DNA of 23,504 nt from the IMG/VR virus record IMGVR_UViG_3300030060_003790, positions 1-23,504 of that record; one strand, 5' to 3'. The translations under genes and the position numbers were made by a program. The DNA comes from a virus. Within the stretch, counting starts at the first letter, position 1. Each line of letters opens with the position of its first letter. Positions 1-20,269 of this stretch are shown in pieces. The notes below the pieces were generated by a model. It was not told the origin of the DNA and did not search any database. It saw nothing but the letters and a program-made list of their open reading frames with translations.

Positions 1-183
1 GACAAAGGCGAACAAGCATTAAACGAAGTCAACGCCCATGAGCGAGAGTGTGCCTTGCGCTACCAGCGTATCGAAGAACGCCTTGCAGAAGGCTCTGCCA
101 AGTTTAAGCACCTAGAGCATCTTATTTACGGACTGTACGCATTGATTGCAGCGGCGGCTTTGCCGCAGTTTTTCATGGGGTGA
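1..183 (+). CDS. C-terminal part of a coiled-coil, membrane-anchored phage protein (5' end outside window)
   Basis: The first reading frame is open from base 1 to a TGA at 181-183 and gives about 60 residues. The visible part is a charged, probably coiled-coil helix rich in Glu, Arg and Lys, followed by a hydrophobic Ala/Leu segment (YGLYALIAAAALPQFF) close to the C-terminus that can span a membrane. This helix-plus-C-terminal-TM plan resembles XhlA-like holin-associated proteins of phages, and the gene directly precedes a lysis-type cassette. The family assignment is inference, because the N-terminal half is missing. A lysis accessory role is the favoured guess; a small tail or virion membrane protein is an alternative. 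Confidence 0.6.
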   Translation, partial: DKGEQALNEVNAHERECALRYQRIEERLAEGSAKFKHLEHLIYGLYALIAAAALPQFFMG

Positions 184-189: not shown

Positions 190-654
190 ATGGTAATTGA
201 AAGCATTGCAGCGGCTACAGCCACCTTATCTGCCATTAACGGGTTAATCGCTCAATGCAACGAAACAGGTCAGGGTGTCCATCAGGTAATGGGCATGATC
301 TCGGATTTCGGAGAAGGGATCACCGAGTTTGAGGCGCAACGCCGACAAAGCACCTTCAAGCCGCTCACGCAGAATGAAATCTTGAAGCTCCAGATGATAA
401 AGCGTCAATATGACCGGCATTGGCAGAGCGTACACGATTTACTCCTGGTTGCAGACCCGAAGCTCCTTGATGATTTCAAGGCAGCAAAGGCTCAGCAGGA
501 GCGTGATCGACAAGATCACTTGAGGATGATTGCTCGCAAGAAGAAGGCGCGACAACATCTGATCAACCAGATCCTTGTTGGAGGCACCACCCTAATTGTG
601 GGCGGAACAATAATCGCTGGAGGTTTTGCAATTATATTGAGGCTTTACGGATGA
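190..654 (+). CDS. C-terminally membrane-anchored conserved phage protein (lysis/late region)
   Basis: 154 residues. A mostly helical N-terminal half is followed by a charged Lys/Arg/Gln-rich helix (about 95-125, likely coiled coil) and one hydrophobic segment near the C-terminus (about 128-151, rich in Gly, Ile and Val), ending RLYG. I recall proteins with this plan near lysis or late genes of marine podovirus-like phages, but know no demonstrated function. It starts 6 bases after the previous stop, and its own stop overlaps the ATG of the next gene (ATGA). It does not look like a classical i-spanin, which has an N-terminal anchor. A membrane or lysis role is inferred from location and topology. 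Confidence 0.75.
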   Translation: MVIESIAAATATLSAINGLIAQCNETGQGVHQVMGMISDFGEGITEFEAQRRQSTFKPLTQNEILKLQMIKRQYDRHWQSVHDLLLVADPKLLDDFKAAKAQQERDRQDHLRMIARKKKARQHLINQILVGGTTLIVGGTIIAGGFAIILRLYG

Positions 655-866
655 TTATGGCGTTTTTGCTGGTGGTGATTGTTGAGGGGGAGCCGATTGC
701 CGATCAGTTCTATTTTCGCAACATCCAGCGATGCAATCAGTTTGCACAATGGGTCGAGTCGGGCAAGGTAGATCTGGTCAAAGATCGCAGAGTACAGCGA
801 CAAACCAATATCAGCGCGTACTGCATACCTAAGCGCATAAACCAAAACACAAAGACATACGACTGA
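651..866 (+). CDS. Small exported or membrane-associated protein with a cysteine pair
   Basis: 71 residues starting with a hydrophobic segment (MIMAFLLVVIVEG) that could be a short signal peptide or N-terminal anchor. A polar domain follows with two cysteines, in RCNQF and AYCIP, which could form a disulphide in the periplasm. The start is fixed by the ATGA overlap with the upstream gene, and the stop overlaps the next ATG (TGATG). It resembles small proteins I recall beside the preceding family in marine phages. It lacks a clear lipobox, so an o-spanin (Rz1-like) role is not supported. Function unknown. Confidence 0.7.
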   Translation: MIMAFLLVVIVEGEPIADQFYFRNIQRCNQFAQWVESGKVDLVKDRRVQRQTNISAYCIPKRINQNTKTYD

Positions 867-1201
867 TGGCAGCAAAGAAGTTACAAGAAGGCTCTGAATA
901 CGCCGAATACGATACAGATGGCGATGGCGTTGTGTCGGACTCTGAGCTTGAAACCAGCCGTCAACTCAAAGAGTTAAAGTTGTCGAGTGAGAAGGCAGAC
1001 GCACAAAGAGCAATGGCTTGGTTCGCGTTATTAGGAATGCTTCTTTACCCTTCGTTGGTTGTTATCAGTAGTTGGATAGGATTGGAACAGGCGGCAAACC
1101 TGCTAGGTAACATGGCCCCCACATACTATGTGAGTACTGCCGCCTTGGTCGCATCGTATTATGGCGCATCAGCTTGGCAGAATCGAGGGAACGGAAAATG
1201 A
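866..1201 (+). CDS. EF-hand membrane protein
   Basis: 111 residues. The N-terminus carries a canonical EF-hand calcium loop at 16-27 (DTDGDGVVSDSE), with acidic ligands at loop positions 1, 3, 5 and 12 and Gly at position 6. A charged helix follows, then two hydrophobic stretches at about 49-70 and 85-104 that can span the membrane. The protein would place a single calcium-binding loop next to the inner membrane. The gene overlaps the holin gene start (ATGA) and sits in the lysis cassette, so a role in lysis or in sensing divalent cations is possible but unproven. The EF-hand reading is strong; the biological role is open. Confidence 0.8.
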   Translation: MAAKKLQEGSEYAEYDTDGDGVVSDSELETSRQLKELKLSSEKADAQRAMAWFALLGMLLYPSLVVISSWIGLEQAANLLGNMAPTYYVSTAALVASYYGASAWQNRGNGK

Positions 1202-1575
1202 GTTTAGTCGGACAGCTAATTGGCCCAGTCACAGGTTTGCTAGATAAGTTCATTCCTGACGCTGACACTAAGAACAAGCTGGCCCACGAAATTGCCACCA
1301 TGTCAGAAAAGCATGGTCAGCAGATAGCGTTAGAACAGATCGAAGTTTTGAAGCTCGATGCCAAGGGCAACTGGTTTCAATCAAGTTGGCGCCCTCTAGC
1401 CGGTTACACATGTGTGCTAGGGCTTATGGTTAATTTTTTGGTGGCCCCTATCGCAGCCGGTTTTGGTGTGGTGATACCTCAAGCGGACGCTGGTGTGATG
1501 ATGCCCCTACTTTTGGGCATGTTGGGTCTCGGCGGTGCCAGATCCTACGAAAGAGTCAAAGGTGTTGGTAAGTAA
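1198..1575 (+). CDS. Holin of the three-TM type (GTA_holin_3TM-like)
   Basis: 125 residues from the ATG at 1198. I chose this over an in-frame ATG at 1174 because it gives the ATGA overlap with the upstream stop and has GAGGGAACGGAAA just upstream. An amphipathic N-terminal region is followed by GNWFQSSWRPLAGY and hydrophobic segments at about 67-92 and 98-114, ending LLGMLGLGGARSYERVKG. The NWFQSSWRPLAG and LLGMLGLGGxRxYE signatures match the 3-TM holin family named for gene transfer agent release. The expected role is timed permeabilisation of the inner membrane so the endolysin can reach the cell wall. The endolysin follows immediately (TAATG overlap). Confidence 0.85.
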   Translation: MSLVGQLIGPVTGLLDKFIPDADTKNKLAHEIATMSEKHGQQIALEQIEVLKLDAKGNWFQSSWRPLAGYTCVLGLMVNFLVAPIAAGFGVVIPQADAGVMMPLLLGMLGLGGARSYERVKGVGK

Positions 1576-1994
1576 TGAGCAAGCTAGTCGAAATGATAAA
1601 GCGCCATGAAGGCGTTAAATCTAAGGTCTACAAATGTACACAGGGTTTTGAAACCATAGGTGTAGGCAGAAATATCTCAGAGTCTGGACTTGGGCTATCT
1701 GACGATGAGATCGAATACTTGTTGTCGAATGACATAGCGCGAGTAAAAAGCGAGCTTGCAGACACATACTTTTGGTTCAACGGCATCAACGAAGCGCGTC
1801 AAGATGCAATGATCGACATGTGCTTCAACCTTGGCTTGACCCGTCTACGGGGATTTGTGAAGGCGCTAGAGGCGATGTCACGCGAGCAGTTTGATATAGC
1901 TGCTGACGAATTTATGGATAGCAAGTGGGCGCAGCAAGTTGGTACAAGAGCTATCCGTGTTACTGAAATGATTAGATCTGGAGAATACATATAA
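1575..1994 (+). CDS. Endolysin, GH24 lysozyme (T4 lysozyme-like)
   Basis: 139 residues, the size of a single-domain GH24 muramidase with no signal peptide or wall-binding domain. The catalytic N-terminal signature is present: E12 in RHEG, then VYKCTQGFETIGVGRN with T27. By alignment to T4 lysozyme (E11, D20, T26), the aspartate position is cysteine (C21) here, giving an E-C-T triad. The C-terminal half keeps the family pattern, with DMCFNLG and the WAQQVGTRAIRVTEMI helix. It should cleave peptidoglycan between N-acetylmuramic acid and N-acetylglucosamine. Without a signal peptide it depends on the holin encoded just upstream. It is linked to its neighbours by TAATG at both ends. Confidence 0.9.
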   Translation: MSKLVEMIKRHEGVKSKVYKCTQGFETIGVGRNISESGLGLSDDEIEYLLSNDIARVKSELADTYFWFNGINEARQDAMIDMCFNLGLTRLRGFVKALEAMSREQFDIAADEFMDSKWAQQVGTRAIRVTEMIRSGEYI

Positions 1995-2935: not shown

Positions 2936-4792
2936 ATGACGCTGGCGAAGGTACAGTTCGCCCCTGGCGTTAACAAAGAGGGAACCGAGTATACAGCAGA
3001 CGCTGGCTGGTTCGACTCTGACAAGATTCGATTCCGTAAAGGTCGAGTAGAAAAGATCGGTGGCTGGACAAAGTACAGCGACTCTAGCTTTCTTGGCGTG
3101 TGTCGATCACTGCATAACTGGTCATCACTAGAATCTATCAACTACATTGGGATTGGCACCAACCTAAAGTTCTATGTGGCAGAAGGTTCTGGGTATAACG
3201 ATGTCACACCGATCAGGCTGACATCAGGTGCTGGCGATGCCACCTTTGCCGCAACCAACGGGTCATCCACCATCACTGTGACTGAGAATGCACACGGCGC
3301 AGTGGTCAACGATTTTGTGACGTTCAGTGATGCGGCAACGCTTGGTGGCAACATTACGGCGACCGTTCTCAATCAGGAATATCAGATCGCGTCTGTGCCC
3401 ACGACGAACACCTTCACTATTGAAGCCAAGGACACAAGCGGTGCTGCTGTCACGGCTAACTCTAGTGACACAGGTAATGGTGGTAGCTCGACGGTTGCGA
3501 CATATCAGATCAATACAGGTCTGAACACATTTGTGCAGGGCACAGGTTGGGGTGCAGGCACATGGGGTTCTGGCACTTGGGGTAGTTCCAGCAGTGTTGC
3601 TGCTGCCGGTCAGCTACGACTATTCAGTCAGGACAACTTTGGCGAGGATCTTATATTCAACGTCCGAGGTGGTGGCATCTTCTATTGGGATGAGTCATCG
3701 GGTACAGGAACGAGAGCCATCAACGCTACCGCATTGGCTGGCGCTTCTAATGTGCCAACTGTGGCTTTGCAGGTTCTAGTATCTGACATAGATCAGCACG
3801 TCATTGCGTTTGGTGTGAATCCGATAGGCTCATCAAACATAGACCCGCTGCTTGTAAGATTTTCTGATCAAGAGAATGCGGCTGACTGGACACCTACAGC
3901 CACTAATACAGCCGGTGGTGTACGAATCAACTCAGGCTCTCAGATCGTTGGTGCGGTGCAAACACGACAAGAGATACTGATCTTTACCGACGTGAGCCTG
4001 CATTCTATGCGCTTCACGGGTGCGCCTTTTACATTTCAGTTTGCAACGCTCAGCACCGATGTATCCATGATCTCGCCTAACGCAGCGGTCAACGCCAGAG
4101 GTGCGGTGTACTTCATGGACTCTGGTGGATTCTATGTCTACAACGGTTCGGTGCAGCCACTGCCATGCAGCGTCAAAGAGCATGTGTTTTCTAACCTTAA
4201 CAAAGGCCAAGCGTTCAAGGTGTTTGCCGCTGAGAACAATGACTTTTCAGAGGTAATCTGGTTCTATCCTGTAGGCACCGACAACACAGAGATCACGAAC
4301 TATGTGTCTTACAACTATGCAGAAAATCTTTGGGCTGTTGGCACACTGGATCGGGGTGCTTGGATTGGATACTCACAAAACTCCAATCCGATAGCGTCAT
4401 CTGTTAACACGGGTGTGACGGACGCAAACTTTTTGTACAACCACGAAACAGGTTTCGATGACGATGGTTCGGCGATGACTGCGTTTGTGGAGTCAGGAGA
4501 TCTGGAGATCGGGGAGGGCGATAGGTTTATGATGATAAGCCGCATTGTTCCTGACTTTAAGTTTAGCGGATTGACCTCCGATGCGTCTGTGGACTTCACG
4601 ATCAAAGGCAGTAACTTCCCGCTAGAGACGCCGACAACACAGGCCACAGCAACAGTTACATCAAGCACCACACAGTCCAACATCAGGACTCGCGCACGAC
4701 ACGCAGTGGTGCGTATCGAAAGTTCTGGCGCTGGTTACGGTTGGCGATTAGGTGACTTGCGATTCGACATGCGACAGGACGGTAGGCGGTAA
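2936..4792 (+). CDS. Propeller-like tail/DNA-stabilisation protein (P22 gp10-like)
   Basis: 618 residues, beta-rich. It opens with VQFAPGVNKEGTEY and GWFDSDKIRFRKGRVEKIGGW, and contains repeated small-residue/Trp turns (WGAGTWGSGTWGSSS). The central section has QTRQEILIFTDVSLHSMRF and a MDSGGFYVYNG stretch. The C-terminus is WRLGDLRFDMRQDGRR. I recall this architecture from a widespread structural protein of marine podovirus-like phages that resembles P22 gp10-type tail accessory or DNA-stabilisation proteins. Those sit between the portal and tail needle and keep packaged DNA inside the capsid. The exact assignment is moderately certain. It is followed by a TAATG overlap with a small conserved gene that I recall accompanying it. 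Confidence 0.65.
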   Translation: MTLAKVQFAPGVNKEGTEYTADAGWFDSDKIRFRKGRVEKIGGWTKYSDSSFLGVCRSLHNWSSLESINYIGIGTNLKFYVAEGSGYNDVTPIRLTSGAGDATFAATNGSSTITVTENAHGAVVNDFVTFSDAATLGGNITATVLNQEYQIASVPTTNTFTIEAKDTSGAAVTANSSDTGNGGSSTVATYQINTGLNTFVQGTGWGAGTWGSGTWGSSSSVAAAGQLRLFSQDNFGEDLIFNVRGGGIFYWDESSGTGTRAINATALAGASNVPTVALQVLVSDIDQHVIAFGVNPIGSSNIDPLLVRFSDQENAADWTPTATNTAGGVRINSGSQIVGAVQTRQEILIFTDVSLHSMRFTGAPFTFQFATLSTDVSMISPNAAVNARGAVYFMDSGGFYVYNGSVQPLPCSVKEHVFSNLNKGQAFKVFAAENNDFSEVIWFYPVGTDNTEITNYVSYNYAENLWAVGTLDRGAWIGYSQNSNPIASSVNTGVTDANFLYNHETGFDDDGSAMTAFVESGDLEIGEGDRFMMISRIVPDFKFSGLTSDASVDFTIKGSNFPLETPTTQATATVTSSTTQSNIRTRARHAVVRIESSGAGYGWRLGDLRFDMRQDGRR

Positions 4793-4986
4793 TGGCAACA
4801 AGACAGAATCCACTGCCAGTTCCTGCGCCAGAGTATGATGTAGCTAACGAGGCAATCACTCGACGTACTCTGGAGCAGGCGTTAGATCAGATAGAAAACG
4901 ATGTAGAGCTAGCTAAGACTCAGGGCGATAAGCCAGGGTCTCTTGCTATGCGCCGGTTCCAGTTTTTACTGATGGGTGCATCGTGA
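4792..4986 (+). CDS. Small conserved phage protein, charged helical
   Basis: 64 residues. It has a Pro-rich start (NPLPVPAPEYD), then a helix with ITRRTLEQALDQIENDVELAK, and ends RRFQFLLMGAS. I recall close relatives directly downstream of the propeller-like structural gene in marine phages. The fixed position suggests a small virion or assembly partner, but no function is known to me. Both ends overlap neighbours: TAATG upstream and GTGA downstream. Confidence 0.75.
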   Translation: MATRQNPLPVPAPEYDVANEAITRRTLEQALDQIENDVELAKTQGDKPGSLAMRRFQFLLMGAS

Positions 4987-5312
4987 CAGATGTCATCAAG
5001 GTTTTGGGTCAGGTTGATGTTAGCGCAACCACTACAACGACTTTGTATACGGCACCAGATCTTACACAAACAACAGTCAGTTCCTTGGTGATCTGCAACA
5101 GAAGCGGATCAGCCATTACCTTTCGTGTCAGTATTCATGTTGGCGGTGCGTCAGCAGATGATAAGCAGTTTATATTTTTCGATGAAGACTTGGCAGCAAC
5201 CACCAGTAGAACGGTGGTCATTGGCATATGCCTGTCGCAAACGGATGTAGTCAAGGTTTACGCAAGCGCAGCCAACGTGAGCTTCAACCTCTTTGGAGTG
5301 GAGACGAGCTAA
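4983..5312 (+). CDS. Small beta-sandwich-like phage structural protein of unknown role
   Basis: 109 residues from a GTG at 4983 that overlaps the upstream stop (GTGA). The sequence is a series of Thr/Val/Ser-rich beta strands with a conserved-looking middle (VSSLVICNRSGSAITFRVS) and end (DVVKVYASAANVSFNLFGVE). I recall this type as frequent in cyanophage and other marine phage structural modules. The all-beta composition fits a decoration, fibre-base or tail component. The precise role is unknown. It is followed by TAATG. Confidence 0.75.
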   Translation: MTDVIKVLGQVDVSATTTTTLYTAPDLTQTTVSSLVICNRSGSAITFRVSIHVGGASADDKQFIFFDEDLAATTSRTVVIGICLSQTDVVKVYASAANVSFNLFGVETS

Positions 5313-9501: not shown

Positions 9502-12155
9502 TGAACATCTTAGAAATCGAAGACATGATCAAAGGCTTGCCTGATCAAGCCTTACAGCGAGAGGCGCAGATGCCATCAGGTCAGGTGCCTCAGTTCCTAG
9601 TTGTATCTGAGATACAGCGACGGGGTGATATGCGTAAACGATTTCAGGAAAGACAGCCGCAAGGGACTATAAAAGATCAGGTGATACAGGAAGGCATTGC
9701 CGCGATGGCACCACCAGAGCCGCAAATGCAGTCAGCTATGATGGGTATGCAGCAATCCATGCCCCAAGCGATGCCTCCTCAAATGCAAATGCAGCAGCCA
9801 CAAATGGTTCCTCCAATGCAGATGGCTGAAGGTCGCGCTATTCCTTTTCCTGATGATCCAAGACTTTCAGATTTAAGAGCGCAAGGCTTGACTGATGAGC
9901 AGATCGCGCAAGAGATTCGTAGGCTAGGGCTTAATGAGGAGCGTATGGCCCAACTTGGCTTGCCGACAATAGGCACTATGGAAGCAACGATGCAGCCTGA
10001 TGCTTACAGTCAAGATGCATATGCTGACATTTTCGCAAGACAGCAAGGGAACATCCCAGCAGGAATGGAGTTTATTGAGCCAAGAACAACGGATGATCTG
10101 TTGTCTCCTCAAGTAGGCTTCACGACAAGAGAGATGGCGCAATCCCAGACACTACCAAACGTGCCTGTGGAGAGACCTGCGCCCTCACAAAGAGGGATAG
10201 GTAGTGCCCCAGAGGGAACGGCGGATGCCTTGCAAGCTCAGATACAAGCTCTAAGATCTACCCCAGCAAGCCCTGCTGCTCAAGCAGACTTTGCCATGCC
10301 CGACTTTGCTATGCCTGACTTTGCTTCTTACAGGCAGGCAATCAACACTGCCCTTGCATCACCTCCCGGCACAGGCCGACGTGACGTGGGCAACTTTCTA
10401 GGTTCTGACATGCCAGCGTTATCAAGCGTTGATGGGTCTGCTCCAGTTAGTGCCCCGCCAGCGGTTGACACTCCTGATCTAGCAGCACAACTCATTGCCG
10501 AATCTCAAGCACGGCGTGGGACTGAGCCGAGTGCAGCAGTCGGAACTTTCGATGCGCCAGCGCCACAAGATAATGCGTTGATAGAACAGTTGATCGCCGG
10601 ATCTGAGGCTAGGCGTGGCAGAGAACCAAGTCCTGCTGTAGGCACATTCAATGCGCCATTGCCAGAAAATACTGCATTAATTCAAGAGCTTATTGCTGGA
10701 TCTGAAGCTAGGCGTAATCAAGAACCGAGTCCTGCCATAGGGACATTCGACACGCCAGCACCAGAGAATAATGCTCTGATACAAGAACTTATTGCCGGAT
10801 CTGAGGCTAGGCGTGGTAGAGAACCCAGCTCTGCCGTTGGAGATTTTAGTCAGTCAATAAACGACAGCCCCAGAAGACAAGCTATGCTTGCATCGATGGA
10901 AAGAATTCGTGAAGCACAAGAAAACGCACCGTTACTACCCTTCATTCCTGAAGGCACAAAGTCGCAAATTATTGCAAGAGGACGTGAAAACCCAATTCTC
11001 TCTCAAATCGAGGAGGGAGCGGCTGCTGATGATTTAGCGCGCAACCGAGAAAGAATGCTCGCTTCATTAGAAGGAACTCCTTTAGAGGGCATTTATGATT
11101 CACCGTTAAGTCAATCTCCTCGCGTCAACGTCATGGACTTGATTAAGATAGCTGAAAATCAGTCTGGTGCAGTGCAAACTGATGGCGGAAGAGGGTTTTT
11201 AACAGGCTCCGCGACCGATCCAGAGGTTGTTGAAACTGCCCTTGCTGGAGATACATCCTCAAGCCTTTCAAACAGATCTGCCACGGTAGACGAAAAGGAC
11301 ACCAATAGAACGGGTACTGGTGGAGGAAAAGCGGTACAAGGCACTGGGTCTGCTGAAGGTAGATTGGCTGGTCGCGTTGGAGAAGGCTCTGAAGCTAGAG
11401 AACGCTTAGGGGCTGGGGCTATTAGAAGAGCGGGAGAGCTTCAAGGCAGAATGAGCTTAGCTCAAATGATTGAAAACCAAGAAAGGCCAACTCTTTCTTA
11501 TCAAGGTTTGATTTCTGATTTTGAAAAACAAATGGAGTCTCAACTCGCTGACATAAAGCGTGAGAAAGGATCTCAAGCTTTGATAGCTTTGGGTGCAGGT
11601 ATTGCAAGGGGTGACTTAGGCGCTGGGCTGTCTGACGCGGGTAAGGCTGCTGCCGCAAGCAACGCACAGAAACGGGCGCTAGAAGCAAGACAGCAAGCAA
11701 TGCAGATGGGACTCAGGAAATCAGAGATCGATGCAGCGTTCCAAAGCGAGGTTCAAAAGCAAGCTAATAAACTTGAAGCACAAAAGACTAGGATTAGTGC
11801 TCTAGAAAGTTATGGAGCGAAGCAAGACGCCGCAGAGCAAGCTGTTCTAAATTTTGAAAATGGCATTGACACGACCCTTGCAAACATCGGCGTCAAGCGA
11901 GACTACTATGATCAACTTAGTGAGCAGCAAAAAGAGACCAGTAGAAGAGCGATTCTAAACTATGTTGAGGGCATCATTAGTCGGCAAAACATGGCTGGGC
12001 AGGATAAGCAAGCACAGGACGCCATGAGGCAGCAGCTTTTGCGAGAGGCAGCAAACATTCTGAATGTGCCTGTCGGTGAAATTTCTGGTTCCACAAACAA
12101 AGGTGAAGGTGAAGATCAAGTAATAGAGTTTGATGATCAAGGTAAAAGAATCTAA
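9501..12155 (+). CDS. Large repeat-containing virion protein, probable ejection protein
   Basis: 884 residues. The N-terminus (MNILEIEDMIKGLPDQALQR, then PQFLVVSEIQRR) is a motif I recall at the start of large phage virion proteins. It is followed by a Met/Gln/Pro-rich low-complexity stretch (about 75-110). Disordered linkers lead to 3.6 copies of a 33-residue repeat (331-449) with core LIAGSEARRGREPSPAVGTF. The C-terminal third is helical, with a short Ala/Gly segment (ALIALGAGIARGDLGAGL) that looks membrane-active, then coiled coil, ending in an acidic Glu/Asp tail. There is no enzyme motif. The position between two other probable ejection proteins suggests an internal core or ejectosome component. 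The start and stop are coupled by TAATG. Confidence 0.65.
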   Translation: MNILEIEDMIKGLPDQALQREAQMPSGQVPQFLVVSEIQRRGDMRKRFQERQPQGTIKDQVIQEGIAAMAPPEPQMQSAMMGMQQSMPQAMPPQMQMQQPQMVPPMQMAEGRAIPFPDDPRLSDLRAQGLTDEQIAQEIRRLGLNEERMAQLGLPTIGTMEATMQPDAYSQDAYADIFARQQGNIPAGMEFIEPRTTDDLLSPQVGFTTREMAQSQTLPNVPVERPAPSQRGIGSAPEGTADALQAQIQALRSTPASPAAQADFAMPDFAMPDFASYRQAINTALASPPGTGRRDVGNFLGSDMPALSSVDGSAPVSAPPAVDTPDLAAQLIAESQARRGTEPSAAVGTFDAPAPQDNALIEQLIAGSEARRGREPSPAVGTFNAPLPENTALIQELIAGSEARRNQEPSPAIGTFDTPAPENNALIQELIAGSEARRGREPSSAVGDFSQSINDSPRRQAMLASMERIREAQENAPLLPFIPEGTKSQIIARGRENPILSQIEEGAAADDLARNRERMLASLEGTPLEGIYDSPLSQSPRVNVMDLIKIAENQSGAVQTDGGRGFLTGSATDPEVVETALAGDTSSSLSNRSATVDEKDTNRTGTGGGKAVQGTGSAEGRLAGRVGEGSEARERLGAGAIRRAGELQGRMSLAQMIENQERPTLSYQGLISDFEKQMESQLADIKREKGSQALIALGAGIARGDLGAGLSDAGKAAAASNAQKRALEARQQAMQMGLRKSEIDAAFQSEVQKQANKLEAQKTRISALESYGAKQDAAEQAVLNFENGIDTTLANIGVKRDYYDQLSEQQKETSRRAILNYVEGIISRQNMAGQDKQAQDAMRQQLLREAANILNVPVGEISGSTNKGEGEDQVIEFDDQGKRI
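10288..10326 (+). repeat. Short triplet repeat encoding DFAMP
   Basis: Near-identical 15-bp blocks of the form GACTTTGCYATGCC(Y) encode DFAMPDFAMPDFAS inside the 884-aa protein. This is a minor low-complexity feature; slippage is its likely origin. Confidence 0.6.
10491..10847 (+). repeat. 3.6 tandem copies of a 99-bp/33-residue repeat
   Basis: Units start at 10491, 10590, 10689 and 10788, exactly 99 bp apart. They encode LIAxSxARRxxEPSxAxGTF followed by an Ala/Pro/Glu/Asn linker, and the last copy breaks after 20 residues. The copies differ at several third positions and at a few residues (for example GRE against NQE), so they are not recent duplications. They lie in the disordered middle of the 884-aa protein. 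Confidence 0.9.
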
Positions 12156-15100
12156 TGATCAGAGCAAAGCTTCCTGATGGGCGAATCTTGCAATTCCCTG
12201 ACGGAACAGACGATGCCGTCATTCAGGGTGCTGTAAATGAAGTTCTAGGCGTCGGTCTTGAAGATCCGTTTGCTGATGAGCGGACTGGGCTTGGTCAAGC
12301 GGGAGAAACACTCAAAGCCATACCTCGAGGATTTGCAAACACCTTCTTGTCTGCTGGCGAGGGTCTAGCAGAGCTTGCTGACGCAGCTACAAACGTTGTT
12401 GGTCTGGAAGATGTCATTGATAGTGGTGATGACAATGCTCTCGTCGCTGCATCACGCGAGGGTAGAAAGGCAATCGATGAGTACATGGGTGCTGATCAAG
12501 CCTATCAAGATACCTGGCTAACAAAGTTCGGAGAAGGTGTAGGTTCTTTAGCTTCATTCTTTACGCCCGCCGGAGCGTTGAGACTTGCTGGTTTGGCAGG
12601 CAAACCTGTTGCCGCGCTAGGTGGTATGGGGGCGGCAGAAGCCGTGGCTGGTGGCACCTTAGCCGCTGGTGCTGGCGCTGGTGATCAGGCTCAACGTATA
12701 CAGGCCGCAAGAGATGCCGGTATAGATGTCAGTGAAAACCAAGAAGATCTCTCGATTGTTAGTGGTGGCTTCGTCGGTTTGTCCGAGTTGGCACTGCCAG
12801 CAACACTGCTCAAGCGTCTGAACCCAGATGCGCTAGAAAAACTCCCTGTTGGTGCTACGGAACTACTCAAGTCTGCCTTGAGAAGCGGATCACTAGAGGC
12901 TATCCAAGAAGTTAGCGCAACTATCGCCCAGAATGCCATTGAGAAGGGTGTTTACAACGAGCAGTTGGAGTTGCTAGGTGGCAACCTGTACGACGATTTA
13001 ACCATCGGCGGTGCAGTGGGTGCTGGCGCAGACTTGGTAGTAAATGCTATAGCAGGACGCAGAAACAAAGCGTCTTTCGATGCTCAGCTAGAGAAAGAAA
13101 AAGCCAAGCGAGAGCAAAACGAAAAGAACATACAAGCAAGATCAGAGGCTCTGTCAGCAGATCTTGAGCTAGATCAAGCATTCCAAGAGACGTTGAGACA
13201 AGAGCGCGAAAATGCGCCCACGGCTGAGGAAGAAAGGTTTCGTGTTGTAAGAGAGCGTATAGGCCAGTTGCCTATAGGCGAGCAAGCGCCTGTTGATGAA
13301 ACTGCCTCAGGCATCAAGCAGTTAATGGGTATTTATTTCCCATCAGCTAACTCGTCTTTCAGTGTTCGATCTGAGCCTGTCGGGCAAGACGGAATCAAGC
13401 GTTATCAAGTAATTGATTCTGAAGGTTACACATACGCAGCGCCGTCAGAAACCCAAGGTCGGGCAGCGGCGTTAGCGTCTGCTCTAAATAAGCAAGTGGA
13501 AGTTGACTCCGTCTACAACGGTGGTGACGCAGTCATTCAGTCATCACCAGAAATGTATTCTGATGACCAAAAGAAAACCCTGCAACGCTATAACTTTGCG
13601 GCAAATGACCCTGATGCACAAACCTTCACATCCGCTGCCATAGACAGTGCCGCAGAAACCACACTTGATAGAGGGTTCTATGAAGGCGAAAAGCTAGAAG
13701 ACGTTATCCGAGATGTTCGTGCTGGTGTGCGTCAAGAAGCAAGAATGACGGCGTCACAGAAGATCAACCGTCAAAGACTTCAAGACGGCAAAACCGCATC
13801 GAACAACTTCACGTTACAAGAAGCCAAAGATGTTCTAGGCGACAAGCTAGTTAACCTGACAGACACTCGCGTCAATGGTTTGCCAGAGACAGAAAGCTAT
13901 CGTGTGGAAGACAGGCGTAAGCGCAATGCTACAGTGCCCAACTATGTTGTGGTCAGCAGCGCAGGCGAAGTTGTTCGAGGCAGAAAACTAAACCCTCAAG
14001 AAAAACAAGCCTACCTAGAAACCGGCAGACCAAAGAAAAACATGCCTCGCATCGTGCCATTTGGCAGGAATGCAGGCGAAGCTCAAGCATTTGCCGACAA
14101 AGCCAACGCAAACACTGGCATCGGTCGTGTAGATGAATCTGTCTACAGAGATAAGTTTGTCTCTAGGCAGTTCTTGCAAAACATTCTAGACGCGAAAAAC
14201 ATTACATCGCCAATAGACTCTCCAGAGTTGAAGTATCTCGCTGAGCGTTTTGCTGGAGTCGCTCCAAACACAAACCTAAGCCAGATGACTGAGGGTGAGT
14301 TCAAGCTATTTGCACAGAAGTTGCGATCTTTGCCTAAATTCTATGATCCAACAAGACTGCCTGTTTTTAAGTTCAAACCATATACCGGCTATCAGTTCAA
14401 AAAAGCTGTAGAGACTCTTCAGAGAAACCCTAATGCAAGCACACTAACAATAGCTGAAGAGTCAGGTATAGCTGATTTAGATTTAGCAAATCAGGTTATC
14501 GCAGACGCTCAAGCACAAGGTGTCACTGAGCAGACGGCACCAGTCGCACTACTGCCTTCGCCTGCCCCTGTAGATGAGGCTGCATTAGATCGGTTTCGAG
14601 CAGCTATGGAGCGCGAGATGAAGGGCTTGGGCCTTTCGGATGTTCCTGTAAACGTGGACTACGCTCTCCGATCATCATCAAGAGATGCTGATGGTAATGT
14701 TGTTTATGGCATCAGGCCGCGACAGCCAGGTGAAGAGGTTGCGCGAGAAGATGTTGTTGGTGGTGAGTTAGGGTCTCGCACGTTTGTTCGCCTAGAGGAG
14801 GCCGATCCAGAGGGCAAAGCCGCTGGCCTAGATAGCCAAGGATACTTTTCGCCAGATCTCAACAGGATCTTTTTATCTGTTGACGCGGTGAAAACAGATC
14901 CGTCAATGACTGAAGAGCAAGTCGAGGCGGCGCTCATCAGTACGCTGAACCATGAAAGCGTTCACGCCATGAGGATGATGGATCTCTTCAAGGTGAAAGA
15001 ATGGAATCTACTTAGCAAGAAAGCGAAGGAACTCAAGAAGTCTGGCAATCAAACCTATTTAGATTGGGCTAGAGCAACCTACAAGGAACTAAACCCTGTT

Positions 15101-18100
15101 CAACAGAATGAAGAGGCTGTTGCTGAACTTGTAAGAGATCAAAGGGCTAACCCAAAGATTGTCGCCGGAAAGCCAAGAGCACTACTAAACAGAATCAGAC
15201 AGTTCATGGTGAAACTAAAGAGCGCCTTGGACGGCTCTGGCTTTACATCATTCGATTCTATTATTCAGGACATCGGCACCGGCAGAATAGGTGCCAGATC
15301 ACGCGATGTCAGGACGGAACAACTAACGGAGCGTAAGGCCGGTAAGGCTTCTTATGCTCCTATTGGCACCGTTAGAACACCCACCTTGACAACGACAGGA
15401 GCAGAGGAAGAGGGACGTTTGGGTCAGCCTCGCATGGCAGACTTCAGCAGGAGGGCTGCTGTTGCGCCAGAGCCTGTTGAGATGGGTGTCAATGTTAGAA
15501 CTGATGGCGATACAAACTATGCTGATTTAATCGTTAGCGGTCAGAAGAAATACGAGAGCCGCGATAAAGACTCGCTTCGACCTTATGTTGGCAAGCGTGT
15601 TGGCATCATAGAAACAGGTTCTGGCCCAGCGAAATTGGTCGGGTATGCCACTGTTGGCGAACCTATCGAAGTTGGGGAAACAGAGTTTAATGACTCAAGA
15701 GATCAGCACCTTGTACCAGAAGGTAGCAAGTTTGACATAAAGCCAGGGCAGTCAAAGTTTCTTTACGAAATGATTGGCCCTGAAAAGTTAGCAGAACCAG
15801 TTGATGTATCTAGTACGAAAGGCATTGTTGCTAGAAACATCTCCCAAATCAATCAAGAAGAAGTCTCAAGGGTTATCGAAGAAGTCCCAGAAACGCCTTT
15901 TGCAAGAACGGCCCCACTCAGTCCTTTAGGTCAAGCTGCCTCCATTGGGATGACTAACACGAATCTGTTACCGACTCAGGAAGAGTTGAAGCAGATGAAA
16001 GACAACACCTACAAACCGCAGCAGAAGAGAACGCTTGTTGAGGCTGCACAGTTCTTACAAGACCGCTGGCAGAACGCTACAGGCCGCACAGAGCCGTTTG
16101 AGTACACCCCAGAGAATATCGACATATTGTCAGATATGCTCGCTACAGAGGCTCTGGTGGCCCTAGAGAACGACGCGAATGCGATTGGCTGGTATGACAG
16201 CAAAATAAAATCAGCAAAGGCTGTCATGCAACTTGTCGAACCGCAAATTATGCAGTCGCCTGATACAGAGGCGGTGTTCGATTTTGGTCTTGCCGTCACG
16301 TCAAACGGACAGGCGGTTGTGGATAACTTCGAGATGGCGACAGATATCTTTAGATATCACATGAAGAACGGTCGCTTTCCAGAAACTACGAAGGAATTCA
16401 ACAAAGGTGGTGAGCGCAATGCCGCCATGTTGGAAGCGTTTAAGTTCCACAATGAGTTCAGCAAGAGCGGTCAGAACCAAGCCATCAGGGACTTCCTAGA
16501 TGAGGACTTCACAGTTAGGGAGCTTTCTGCTTTCGCTGATGAATTCAATGCTGAAGTTGGATTTGATGCTATCAAGGTGCCTAGCGCAGAAGGTGCTGAT
16601 GTAGTTGTCAAAGGCAGCTACATCCTTGGGCCAAAGATAGGCCAAGGCTTTTATCAGAACATCCGAGGCAACTACGATCCGTTGACTATGGATATCTGGT
16701 GGATGCGTATGTGGAATAGAGCCATCGGTAGGCCGTTCACAGATGGCTTGGGCGATGAGGCAAGGGTAGAGAGGCGAAATGAACTAAAGACTCTGGTAAA
16801 GAAGACTGGTGGGCTGCCTCGCAAGCTGATTAATGAAGTTCTCAAGGGCAACGATCAAACACGCACTGAGGTTTATCAAGACCCCCAGCTATTCGATGAG
16901 TTTATACGGGATGTCGAGCGCCGATACCAAAGGTTCTACAAGGAATACAAAGCTGAAAAGGGCGTAAATCACGTCAAGCCAGAGATCTTCAAGAAGACTG
17001 GAACCTATGTAAAGAACATGGCACCGCAGCTTCAGGCAACGCCAAAGGGCGTTGTAGAGAGAGCTTACATGCGTGAGGTTGTGGATGCGGCGAAGGAAAG
17101 ACTGAGGCAGAGAAACTACAACATAAGCACCGCCGACTTTCAGGCACTGATGTGGTATCCTGAGAAGCAGTTGTTCAGGGCGCTGGGTGTTCAACCCGGT
17201 CGAGGTTCTGATAACGACTATCTTGACGCAGCAGAGATCCTTGCTGAAAAAGAAGGAGTACCCCGTGGAAAGGTTGAAAAAGCACTCAGGGACGCAGACA
17301 GAAAGCGAGCCGACGATGATCAGCCAAGTGCCAGAAGGCAAGATGGAGTTATTCGTCCAGAGACTCCAACAGTTGACCGCCAAGAAGAAGGCCCAGCGTT
17401 TAGCAGAGCAGCGCCGAGGCTAGAATCTAAACGTATTCCAGAAGGCAAGGTCAAAGAGGTAGTAGAGCAAAACATATCTACTGCCGAGAACGCACCAACC
17501 GGCTTTGTCCCTAAGTTCAATCCATCAGCAGACCCATACGCTCAAGCTGTAGCCGCTGACCCAGAAAGAGGTGCAGTGCTGCCGCCGGAAGAAAGAGCGA
17601 TGTTCTCTCGAGCAAATGCGCCAGAGCGTCCAGAGTATGTGCAGTCTGCTATGGATAACATGCTCATCGCTAACCCAAAGGATGAGACTCCGGGCGATAC
17701 CTATCTCAACGCTTTAGATCAAGGGCCGATAGATCAACTCCTGACCAGAGCAAAGCAGGGCGCTATCTTTCAGTACGCACAGATAGAGGCGTATGAGAAT
17801 AAGTTTGATAGAGACGTGCTGGCTAGTTCGGCGGCGATACCCGCGCTCATGGCAGCGGATAGATCGAACGCAATAGCTGCACAAGCCATCGCAAACGGTG
17901 TCCCTGTATACGAAAATGGTCTGACCAAAGTTGTAGATTTCGAGCACACGTTTACTGAGAACTCTGACAGAGCGGGTGAGACCGTGAAGTTCGGTGGCTT
18001 GATAGATGTCATGGGCATGTTGTTCACCAAGGAACATGGCTCTCTTGAGGAAGACGCACAGGCGTATGCGATAGCTAAAAGAGCGCAAGGCTTGAGTGCC

Positions 18101-20269
18101 AGAGGCATTGACTCGCCAGGCACACCAGAGCAGCACAGATTAGTGATCGAGAATGCAGAGCAGTATCTTGATGAAAACGGAAACTCAATCATCAAGGACT
18201 GGTATGACGCTTGGCAGTCCTACAATAGAAACACGATTAAGTTTTTGCGGGATACTGGTGTTTTAACAGAAGAAATGGCTGAGATCTGGGCCGCTAAGTC
18301 AGACTATGTTCCGTTCTACAGACAGGCTATGGGTGAGGATTTAACGAGCATACCGAATATGTTCAACAACCTCACATCTGTATCTACCTTCAAGCCGATA
18401 ACAGGCAGCGAAAAACAACTTAACGTACCGTTGCTTAATGCAGTTGTTATGAATTTAAATGCCGCGATTGATATGGGCATGAAGAACGTTGCCCAGCAGC
18501 GTGTTGTTAGAAACATGGTTCGTTACGGTATGAGTAGCGAGATACCCCAAGGGGAAGCTGTAGACGGTAGACCTACGGTGAGCTTCAGGGTAAACGGAAA
18601 AGATCGTAAATTTACGATAGAAGACCCACTTGTCTATCAATCATTGCAGCCACTCGCCGGAGGCAACGGTTTCGACATACTGGAGACTGTTCTTGGAGCA
18701 CCGGCAAACCTATTAAGGGAGATGGTCACAAGAGATCCTGGGTTTATGCTAGCCAACATGATGCGAGATACGTTATCTGCCTATGTAACGTCTGGCGCTA
18801 ACTTCGTGCCAGTGGCAAGCACCTTAAAAGGTTTCACTGAGGACATGACGGATCTAGAAAGAACCGGCGTTGTCGGTGGCTATGACTACTCCAAAGATCC
18901 AAAAGACATCGGCAAGTATCTTAATAATCTTCTTAAAGAGCGCGGTTTCGTACAAGACACCACACTTGGGGTTGCCAAACCTTTTATCGGGTTGTGGAAC
19001 TTTATGGGTGACGTAACCACCAGATCAGACTTCGCAACTAGAAAGGCGGTGTATGACGATGTGCTCGCTCGCACAGGTGATGAAGCTGAAGCCGTTTTCC
19101 AAGCGAAAGAGGTAATGAACTTCGGTCGCCGTGGAAGTCACCCTGTGATGCGTCTGTTAACAACAGCCATACCTTTCTTGAATGCTAGGCTTCAGGGTTT
19201 GGACTTGCTGTTGAATGCCGCTCGAGGCAAGAGAAACGCCAACAAGAATCTAGATCGCGGTCAGGCGGCACGCTCTTTTATTATGCGCGGCTCCACGATA
19301 GCCGCAGTGACTGCCATGTACTACATGATGGTCAGCGATGATGAGCAGTACAAAGAACAAACAGAAGAGATCAAAGATAATTTCTGGATTGTCCCTGGCC
19401 CTGACGGTGTTGCGTTCAGATACCCAATACCGTTTGAGGTTGGCCTGTTATTCAAAACTATTCCTGAAAGAATACTGAGATACGCGACAGATGACGCGAC
19501 AGCAAGAGAGACCGCTGCTTCTCTAGGCAGAGGGATAGTAAGCACCTTAGAGATCAACCCGTTCGGGGTGCAGGCGGTGGCTCCTGCTATAGAGGTGCTC
19601 GCAAACTACAGTGCATATAGAGGCAGACCTATAACGCCTGTATTTATTGATCAGGGAGACGCACAAGAGTTTCAAGAAACTATCGGCACCAGTGAGTTAG
19701 CAAAGCTCATAGGCCAGACCCTAGGCGTGAGTCCAATCAAGACGGACTATTTGATTCGAGGATACACCGGCACGATAGGCTCTTATCTGTTAGATACCAG
19801 CGATTTGGTTTTGAGAAGTAAGGGACTGCAAGGCGACAATCAAGCAGTGATGCCTGCGATGAGGATCAGAGAATATCCTGTTATCAAAAGGTTCTTCACA
19901 AACGAGTTCGGTGGTGCAGAGAAAGAACGCTTCTACGAAATGAGTAACTACATAAACCGTTTCTACAATAGTTACAATGACCTAGCCAACGCTGGCAGAC
20001 TAGAAGAACTGGAGCGATTTACTGCTGGTAGAGAGAATCTTCTTAGTATGAAGCGTGACGTAGACCGTGTGCGTAGAGATCTGTCTGCTCTCAGAAAAGA
20101 GAGAGAGGCAATCATGCGACAAGACAGAACGCCAGAAGAGAAACAACGCTTAGTTCGTGAGATTAATCTGCGAGAGCGTTATGTATTGGAAGTTGTGCCA
20201 GAGCTATACAAATTAGCTGATCTTCCCACAATCGATGTCGGATCAAGGCTGAGAGCGATAGCCAACTAA
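12155..20269 (+). CDS. Giant polyvalent virion protein (zincin-like HEXXH, ASCH-like and LPD38-like domains)
   Basis: 2704 residues (roughly 300 kDa), one intact frame coupled to the previous gene by TAATG. In order: a short N-terminal LPDGRILQFPDGT module; an Ala/Gly-rich membrane-active-looking segment (about 127-185); two small modules of the form YxVVxSxG...AxAxAxxxN (around 410-450 and 595-650). A zincin-like domain follows, with H933-E-S-V-H937 and a downstream NEEAVAE (985-991) that can supply the third zinc ligand. Then come an ASCH-like domain (about 1105-1225, with DLIVSGQKKYESRD and LRPYVGKRVGIIETG), a conserved helical block (about 1370-1525, with GNYDPLTMDIWWMRMWNR), an LPD38-like region (about 2190-2430, starting TRDPGFMLANMMRDTLSAYV) and a charged C-terminus. 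In polyvalent phage proteins such domains are packaged and injected with the DNA. Here they probably act in ejection and early host takeover; that role is inference. Confidence 0.8.
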   Translation: MIRAKLPDGRILQFPDGTDDAVIQGAVNEVLGVGLEDPFADERTGLGQAGETLKAIPRGFANTFLSAGEGLAELADAATNVVGLEDVIDSGDDNALVAASREGRKAIDEYMGADQAYQDTWLTKFGEGVGSLASFFTPAGALRLAGLAGKPVAALGGMGAAEAVAGGTLAAGAGAGDQAQRIQAARDAGIDVSENQEDLSIVSGGFVGLSELALPATLLKRLNPDALEKLPVGATELLKSALRSGSLEAIQEVSATIAQNAIEKGVYNEQLELLGGNLYDDLTIGGAVGAGADLVVNAIAGRRNKASFDAQLEKEKAKREQNEKNIQARSEALSADLELDQAFQETLRQERENAPTAEEERFRVVRERIGQLPIGEQAPVDETASGIKQLMGIYFPSANSSFSVRSEPVGQDGIKRYQVIDSEGYTYAAPSETQGRAAALASALNKQVEVDSVYNGGDAVIQSSPEMYSDDQKKTLQRYNFAANDPDAQTFTSAAIDSAAETTLDRGFYEGEKLEDVIRDVRAGVRQEARMTASQKINRQRLQDGKTASNNFTLQEAKDVLGDKLVNLTDTRVNGLPETESYRVEDRRKRNATVPNYVVVSSAGEVVRGRKLNPQEKQAYLETGRPKKNMPRIVPFGRNAGEAQAFADKANANTGIGRVDESVYRDKFVSRQFLQNILDAKNITSPIDSPELKYLAERFAGVAPNTNLSQMTEGEFKLFAQKLRSLPKFYDPTRLPVFKFKPYTGYQFKKAVETLQRNPNASTLTIAEESGIADLDLANQVIADAQAQGVTEQTAPVALLPSPAPVDEAALDRFRAAMEREMKGLGLSDVPVNVDYALRSSSRDADGNVVYGIRPRQPGEEVAREDVVGGELGSRTFVRLEEADPEGKAAGLDSQGYFSPDLNRIFLSVDAVKTDPSMTEEQVEAALISTLNHESVHAMRMMDLFKVKEWNLLSKKAKELKKSGNQTYLDWARATYKELNPVQQNEEAVAELVRDQRANPKIVAGKPRALLNRIRQFMVKLKSALDGSGFTSFDSIIQDIGTGRIGARSRDVRTEQLTERKAGKASYAPIGTVRTPTLTTTGAEEEGRLGQPRMADFSRRAAVAPEPVEMGVNVRTDGDTNYADLIVSGQKKYESRDKDSLRPYVGKRVGIIETGSGPAKLVGYATVGEPIEVGETEFNDSRDQHLVPEGSKFDIKPGQSKFLYEMIGPEKLAEPVDVSSTKGIVARNISQINQEEVSRVIEEVPETPFARTAPLSPLGQAASIGMTNTNLLPTQEELKQMKDNTYKPQQKRTLVEAAQFLQDRWQNATGRTEPFEYTPENIDILSDMLATEALVALENDANAIGWYDSKIKSAKAVMQLVEPQIMQSPDTEAVFDFGLAVTSNGQAVVDNFEMATDIFRYHMKNGRFPETTKEFNKGGERNAAMLEAFKFHNEFSKSGQNQAIRDFLDEDFTVRELSAFADEFNAEVGFDAIKVPSAEGADVVVKGSYILGPKIGQGFYQNIRGNYDPLTMDIWWMRMWNRAIGRPFTDGLGDEARVERRNELKTLVKKTGGLPRKLINEVLKGNDQTRTEVYQDPQLFDEFIRDVERRYQRFYKEYKAEKGVNHVKPEIFKKTGTYVKNMAPQLQATPKGVVERAYMREVVDAAKERLRQRNYNISTADFQALMWYPEKQLFRALGVQPGRGSDNDYLDAAEILAEKEGVPRGKVEKALRDADRKRADDDQPSARRQDGVIRPETPTVDRQEEGPAFSRAAPRLESKRIPEGKVKEVVEQNISTAENAPTGFVPKFNPSADPYAQAVAADPERGAVLPPEERAMFSRANAPERPEYVQSAMDNMLIANPKDETPGDTYLNALDQGPIDQLLTRAKQGAIFQYAQIEAYENKFDRDVLASSAAIPALMAADRSNAIAAQAIANGVPVYENGLTKVVDFEHTFTENSDRAGETVKFGGLIDVMGMLFTKEHGSLEEDAQAYAIAKRAQGLSARGIDSPGTPEQHRLVIENAEQYLDENGNSIIKDWYDAWQSYNRNTIKFLRDTGVLTEEMAEIWAAKSDYVPFYRQAMGEDLTSIPNMFNNLTSVSTFKPITGSEKQLNVPLLNAVVMNLNAAIDMGMKNVAQQRVVRNMVRYGMSSEIPQGEAVDGRPTVSFRVNGKDRKFTIEDPLVYQSLQPLAGGNGFDILETVLGAPANLLREMVTRDPGFMLANMMRDTLSAYVTSGANFVPVASTLKGFTEDMTDLERTGVVGGYDYSKDPKDIGKYLNNLLKERGFVQDTTLGVAKPFIGLWNFMGDVTTRSDFATRKAVYDDVLARTGDEAEAVFQAKEVMNFGRRGSHPVMRLLTTAIPFLNARLQGLDLLLNAARGKRNANKNLDRGQAARSFIMRGSTIAAVTAMYYMMVSDDEQYKEQTEEIKDNFWIVPGPDGVAFRYPIPFEVGLLFKTIPERILRYATDDATARETAASLGRGIVSTLEINPFGVQAVAPAIEVLANYSAYRGRPITPVFIDQGDAQEFQETIGTSELAKLIGQTLGVSPIKTDYLIRGYTGTIGSYLLDTSDLVLRSKGLQGDNQAVMPAMRIREYPVIKRFFTNEFGGAEKERFYEMSNYINRFYNSYNDLANAGRLEELERFTAGRENLLSMKRDVDRVRRDLSALRKEREAIMRQDRTPEEKQRLVREINLRERYVLEVVPELYKLADLPTIDVGSRLRAIAN

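Follow-up and report, generated by a model that had tools for sequence, protein, structure and literature searches.

Among the closest described systems are class II holins such as the phage 21 pinholin, small proteins with two transmembrane (TM) segments, both termini in the cytoplasm and a basic C-terminal tail, the gene for which adjoins that of an endolysin. To our knowledge, no Ca2+ loop is present in the class II holins described so far, and for most phages there is still little understanding of what sets the time of holin triggering. The protein family described here, which is carried by many ocean phages, is a candidate for a calcium-responsive part of the phage lysis machinery, as judged from sequence. 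It resembles the class II holins in its small size and basic C tail, by prediction in two TM segments and an N-in/C-in layout and, in part of the family only, in the position of its gene next to that of an endolysin; unlike them, it has a predicted Ca2+ loop. This loop resembles the single DxDxDG calcium loops of dockerins in that a loop and an exiting helix are combined with little or no entering helix but, unlike those, it is fused to a membrane hairpin and is not duplicated. A membrane hairpin is also seen in GTA_holin_3TM (PF11351), the gene for which is adjacent to and overlaps that of the family member in our window; the two proteins differ in that no homology between them is detectable.

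The window, i.e. the whole stretch of DNA analysed, is an IMG/VR record of 23,504 bases, and “EF gene” and “EF protein” are used here for the reading frame 866..1201 (+), its product and their relatives (Table 1). Five genes of the window, from that of the 154-aa protein to that of the lysozyme, are packed tightly with overlaps of 1–4 bases: the stop codon of the 71-aa gene shares base 866 with the EF start, and that of the holin gene shares base 1575 with the lysozyme start. A sequence-only reading of this DNA had placed the EF gene directly ahead of a holin gene with overlapping codons, and this was borne out by the ATGA and by the PF11351 match (the profile scan used the ORF from 1201; the ATG start is at 1198). 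For the product of the 5'-cut gene at 1..183, a relative was searched and gave no PHROG match. The 71-aa protein, which precedes the EF gene in window-type phages, has two conserved cysteines and no family match above cut-off; its homology to an 87-aa protein of PhoH-type loci was rejected (4%).

Table 1. Coordinates of the EF gene, its parts and its immediate neighbours in the window.
Feature	Position	Strand	Basis or remark
60-aa (5' cut) protein, C-terminal TM, XhlA-like by architecture only	1..183	+	ORF, TM scan
154-aa protein, C-terminal TM, cluster 4	190..654	+	recurrent EF-gene neighbour; distant member matches phrog_32327
71-aa protein, N-terminal hydrophobic segment, two Cys, overlaps EF start	651..866	+	weak sub-cut-off family matches
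EF-hand-loop membrane protein, 111 aa	866..1201	+	ORF ATG to TGA, translation, sequence-based homologue search
Predicted EF-hand-type Ca2+ loop, EF protein residues 16–27, DTDGDGVVSDSE	911..946	+	invariant D16, G21, E27
TM1, about residues 49–70, continuous with exiting helix	1010..1075	+	hydropathy; AlphaFold2 helix 25–71
TM2, residues 84–106, weakly hydrophobic in window EF protein	1115..1183	+	AlphaFold2 helix 84–106
ATGA overlap, holin start inside EF-gene stop	1198..1201	+	sequence
Holin, GTA_holin_3TM family (PF11351; phrog_3427)	1198..1575	+	profile match E 6e-15
Endolysin, phage lysozyme (PF00959)	1575..1994	+	profile match

A complete EF-hand loop had been claimed for residues 16–27, and the claim stands: the EF-hand-type loop is real on sequence grounds and is a predicted Ca2+ site. 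A PROSITE-like EF-hand pattern occurred in just 59 of 200,000 shuffles of the EF protein and in a single one of 180 window ORFs, which is the EF protein itself. The strict form of this pattern is matched by 53 of 60 homologue types and not by the other 7, and the core loop residues D1, [DN]3, [DN]5, G6, [ILV]8 and E12 are kept in all 60; a loss of loop ligands in homologues, named beforehand as an observation that would speak against the idea, was not seen. These types were drawn from the 129 proteins of at least 95 aa among 138 distinct ones, the nine shorter proteins (L088, which has no loop, and eight truncated ones, six of them at the 5' end and two at the 3' end) being given no type. Relatives are 28–79% identical to the window EF protein and, in the 60-sequence alignment with its mean column identity of 32%, no column is invariant other than D16, G21 and E27, which are loop positions 1, 6 and 12. 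The loop is found in 131 of the 138 distinct relatives (127 match the loop expression, and 4 have S at position 4). Six of the remaining 7 lack it because their contig starts inside or after the loop, and the seventh, the short relative L088, is without it. Loop ligands persist in the freshwater Limnohabitans phage DC31 and in Sinorhizobium phages. As the loop is conserved in 60 aligned sequences, its occurrence is not due to chance.

The description of the motif as a full canonical EF-hand loop holds, and an exiting helix is predicted; the entering helix appears to be short or, in some members, absent. In the AlphaFold2 model of the window EF protein the entering helix covers residues 11–15 only, and the exiting helix is predicted; in the CRP-1 and CRP-345 members the loop starts at residue 6, so that the five residues before it leave no room for an entering helix. 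As modelled, the EF protein has a loop and an exiting helix but falls short of a complete helix-loop-helix. The Pfam profile EF-hand_5 gives 17.0 bits with the window EF protein, below the cut-off of 25.9 bits; 35 of the 60 members match it at E<=0.01, every match seen individually being below cut-off. Compared with the PDB, the 60-sequence profile finds calmodulins and further EF-hand proteins at E-values from 7e-11, and the best stretch often corresponds to profile positions 15–58. When the PDB was searched by fold with the EF protein model, nothing was found at E<=0.001, and three EF-hand/calmodulin chains appeared at E about 9.

The model, computed from an alignment of 52 sequences (mean pLDDT 77.7, pTM 0.45), has helices at residues 11–15, 25–71, 74–82 and 84–106, and the second of these implies that the exiting helix of the loop would run unbroken into TM1. 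The two TM segments read from the sequence are found by hydropathy scan in 56 of 60 types (4 have one), but in the window EF protein only TM1 exceeds the threshold, the TM2 stretch being weaker. In the 12 residues ahead of TM1, Lys+Arg averages 3.0, compared with 0.7 between the two TM segments and 3.1 in the C tail. The C tail carries a net positive charge in 54 of 55 sequences and the segment linking the TMs a net negative one in 46 of 55; the charge counts leave out five of the 60 sequences, in which the TM1 marker motif was not found. By the positive-inside rule, this suggests that both ends of the EF protein, and hence the Ca2+ loop, are cytoplasmic. For the N-terminus this placement is uncertain, given the net negative charge of the stretch preceding TM1 in 45 of 55 sequences. 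The proposal that the loop serves calcium-dependent envelope contact in seawater is disfavoured, because Lys+Arg places both ends in the cytoplasm by prediction and because the freshwater phage DC31 and the Sinorhizobium phages from soil keep the ligands.

A sequence search identified 78 EF-gene loci, and at least 598 IMG/VR stretches encode a relative of the EF protein. Each of the 26 records searched for copy number has one EF gene, and the copies found in isolate phages are labelled hypothetical. In the libraries searched, the EF protein has no match above cut-off to a family with a known function, and in NCBIfam nothing came near the cut-off. PHROG 27150, to which no function is assigned, is matched by 13 of 60 members at E<=0.001 (best 1.2e-95); the window EF protein reaches E 0.002 across loop and hairpin, the window branch being weakly covered. 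Phage_holin_3_6 (PF07332) has matches at E<=0.01 among 19 of 60 members, the best of them at 5.4e-5. Of 10 members scanned individually, which do not include the best one, 5 match with 16.5–21.9 bits, below the cut-off of 28.4 bits; the window EF protein has no match. PF11351 is not among the matches listed for the window EF protein or for the 60 members, and common ancestry of the EF protein with the adjacent PF11351 holin was rejected (hhalign probability 0.4%). Common ancestry with the two-TM neighbour phrog_2524 was likewise not accepted (15.5%). A viral fold search returned one 84-aa protein without a name (E 1.6e-5, 44% identity), and a protein named holin ranked fourth at a non-significant E of 1.8. 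The T4 holin profile PF11031 matched in none of 10 phage records, which is uninformative as the control likewise had no match anywhere. Among the literature titles listed, which for EF-hands and phage holins are mostly on lysins, phage genomes or reviews, none is on this EF membrane protein family, on a holin of HTVC008M or on EF-hand calcium binding in marine phages; passages of one article (PMC5795418) mention a predicted EF-hand protein in phage phiAC-1.

Gene neighbourhoods were compared over five genes on either side, with loci pooled by most similar type and with overlapping categories; each distinct protein of at least 60 aa was pooled in this way, seven of them at a score under 0.8. 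As genes were called as greedy longest ORFs, some calls are spurious; in the window, the 71-aa gene lost out to an ORF on the minus strand. The EF family is larger than one lysis cassette. Placement in such a cassette, as claimed for the window, recurs in several types with endolysins that are unrelated to one another (PF00959; Peptidase_M15_3 and GH108, both above cut-off; GH19, below it; phrog_465). Altogether, 21 of 60 types have an endolysin within five genes, in 15 cases on the same strand and within 2 kb; in the others it is on the opposite strand (a GH19-like one 32 bases away, SleB-like ones at 0.3–4 kb) or 3.3 kb away. The tally of spanin/XhlA neighbours is 14 types, 8 of which rest only on small proteins with a C-terminal TM and no family match, and the tally of types with any lysis gene drops from 24 to 23 if L173, with a protein of that kind, is left out.

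The EF gene does not always lie beside a holin, as a PF11351 holin is within five genes in only 6 of 60 types; PF11351 was found anywhere in 3 of the 27 records searched, many of them fragments. A T4-like baseplate-hub operon adjoins the EF gene in 25 of 60 types, the window not being among them. Neither an endolysin nor a spanin is within five genes in 21 of these 25, and in 17 the next gene belongs to a cluster whose representative matches a tape-measure PHROG, a label that derives from this one representative. The large genes that follow the EF gene in 5 of the 25 hub types (clusters 29 and 36) have no PHROG match. Other neighbourhoods are characterised by the two-TM protein phrog_2524 (5 of 60 types), by PhoH/exonuclease genes (9 of 60) or by a large terminase (2 of 60), and 7 of 60 fall into none of the listed categories. 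The cluster-4 protein, a possible functional partner of the EF protein, is encoded no more than five genes away in 14 of 60 types. Its family (about 155 aa, with a C-terminal TM) is found in contexts unrelated to one another and, in T4-like loci, is sometimes encoded on the opposite strand.

Some individual loci are informative. In two of them (L114 and L116) the M15 endolysin gene comes first, followed by a pair of Rz-like spanin genes and then the EF gene; one of the L116 spanins itself matches phrog_812, and the cluster of the other matches phrog_739 through its L175 member. In both loci and in phage DC31, the EF product is the only two-TM product among the called neighbours (at least 45 aa, within five genes). 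In CRP-1 and CRP-9 the EF gene is immediately before the endolysin gene, which is followed by a spanin-like gene; the CRP-9 endolysin is phrog_465 and has no Pfam match at E<=0.001. The spanin-like neighbour in CRP-1, CRP-9 and CRP-345 also has two hydrophobic segments. In HTVC008M, Melnitz and phiN3, the EF gene lies between a gp51-like gene and a large gene, annotated in HTVC008M as putative tape measure, and no annotated lysis gene occurs within 4 kb.

Of several possible explanations, we tentatively favour one in which the EF protein is an inner-membrane component of the lysis module, either a holin or a holin partner, with a class-II-like shape and a predicted Ca2+ loop before TM1, and we assign it a probability of roughly 0.4. 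Conservation of the loop, the charge pattern, the holin and lysozyme genes of the window, the endolysin and spanin neighbourhoods elsewhere and the weak similarity to Phage_holin_3_6 argue for it. Arguing against it are the presence of a canonical holin in the window to which the EF protein has no detectable homology, the sub-cut-off scores of the five individually scanned Phage_holin_3_6 matches together with the lack of such a match in the window EF protein, the net negative N flank, the two hydrophobic segments in the spanin-like neighbour of CRP-1, CRP-9 and CRP-345 and, as the strongest evidence, the T4-like hub context in types without lysis genes. The lysis and hub contexts could be reconciled if the late hub operon were where the holin gene of T4-like marine phages is located. 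The EF gene and PF11351 occur together in the window and in CRP-810, and one is thus not a simple replacement of the other. In the window, the EF protein might tune the adjacent PF11351 holin, while in CRP-1, CRP-9, CRP-345, DC31 and L114/L116, where no other holin was recognised beside the endolysin, it may itself be the holin.

Free cytoplasmic Ca2+ is kept very low. The EF protein would insert late in infection with its loop facing the cytoplasm, and binding of Ca2+ would stiffen the exiting helix that runs into TM1, so altering TM1 packing or oligomerisation. Should early leaks admit Ca2+, loaded loops could render triggering all-or-none; alternatively, the Ca2+-free EF protein may restrain the holin. 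Calcium control of lysis by the EF protein, as put forward in the sequence-only reading, is in our opinion plausible but unproven. Its most far-reaching version is a calcium-gated lysis switch shared by unrelated marine, freshwater and soil phages, in which the EF-type loop of a membrane hairpin, lying in the cytoplasm, would detect the Ca2+ that leaks in at the earliest lesions of the membrane and set off fast, cooperative formation of holes. The switch would also supply the missing holin of pelagimyophage-type T4-like phages; this version we consider quite doubtful. If the Ca2+ site on a lysis-module membrane protein is true, an ion-sensing trigger becomes directly testable.

The hub context makes a tail- or ejection-associated membrane protein a serious rival, in which the EF protein joins the tail hub or tape measure during assembly, or is delivered by it, and aids passage of DNA across the inner membrane, with Ca2+ as a structural cofactor and proximity to lysis genes reflecting no more than a late operon. 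The hub types with gp26/gp51-like genes, most of them followed by the tape-measure-type cluster, are consistent with such a role, as is the gene order kept in HTVC008M, Melnitz and the Sinorhizobium phages. Other loci, however, put the EF gene with endolysin, spanins or terminase, and a small membrane hairpin is unlike any hub protein known to us; we regard this explanation as unlikely. The variety of unrelated contexts (hub, PhoH/exonuclease/glycosyltransferase, terminase, lysis) would also be accommodated by an envelope protein of late infection that acts outside lysis, e.g. in superinfection exclusion or membrane remodelling, and moves between late operons. Its partner would then be the cluster-4 protein rather than a holin, and some loci with this neighbour do lack an endolysin. 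That the endolysin neighbourhoods span unrelated families and that the EF product is the only two-TM called neighbour in L114, L116 and DC31 are points against this explanation, which is somewhat unlikely in our judgement.

It could also be that the loop is a purely structural, Ca2+-filled cap without sensing and the EF protein an ordinary membrane anchor, as there is a single loop with no paired EF-hand, and the entering helix is short or missing in many members. Conservation in all 60 types, with Glu at position 12, and a helix continuing into TM1 exceed the needs of a spacer, although a structural site would be conserved as well; we consider this explanation improbable.

Under the favoured lysis-module reading, the EF protein could serve Melnitz and HTVC008M as a lysis protein of the inner membrane. 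In the Melnitz paper a curli pore was put forward as the analogue of a pinholin, and in the passages of that paper drawn on here the word holin is absent except as pinholin (PMC9004378). The EF gene Melnitz3EXVC039M_108, annotated as hypothetical, provides an alternative candidate to the curli pore.

A few annotations deserve comment. The HTVC008M gene at 143486–143998 of KC465899.1 (L181:43486–43998) is annotated as hypothetical, and its product scores above the Glyco_hydro_108 cut-off (E 2e-31) and shares 58% identity with the GH108 endolysin of CRP-810; it is likely to be an overlooked endolysin of this pelagiphage. Gp73 of Roseobacter phage CRP-207 (L079:3292–3873) is labelled “putative lysozyme”, but by eye it combines an N-terminal TM with an extended helical stretch, and lysozyme families are absent from its Pfam matches at E<=0.05, so that the label is probably a misannotation. 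In one locus (L064), a class 3 lipase gene at 4237–5001 (PF01764, E 1e-20) is directly upstream of the EF gene. Finally, about one third of the window record is taken up by a single ORF of 2,704 aa (12155–20269).
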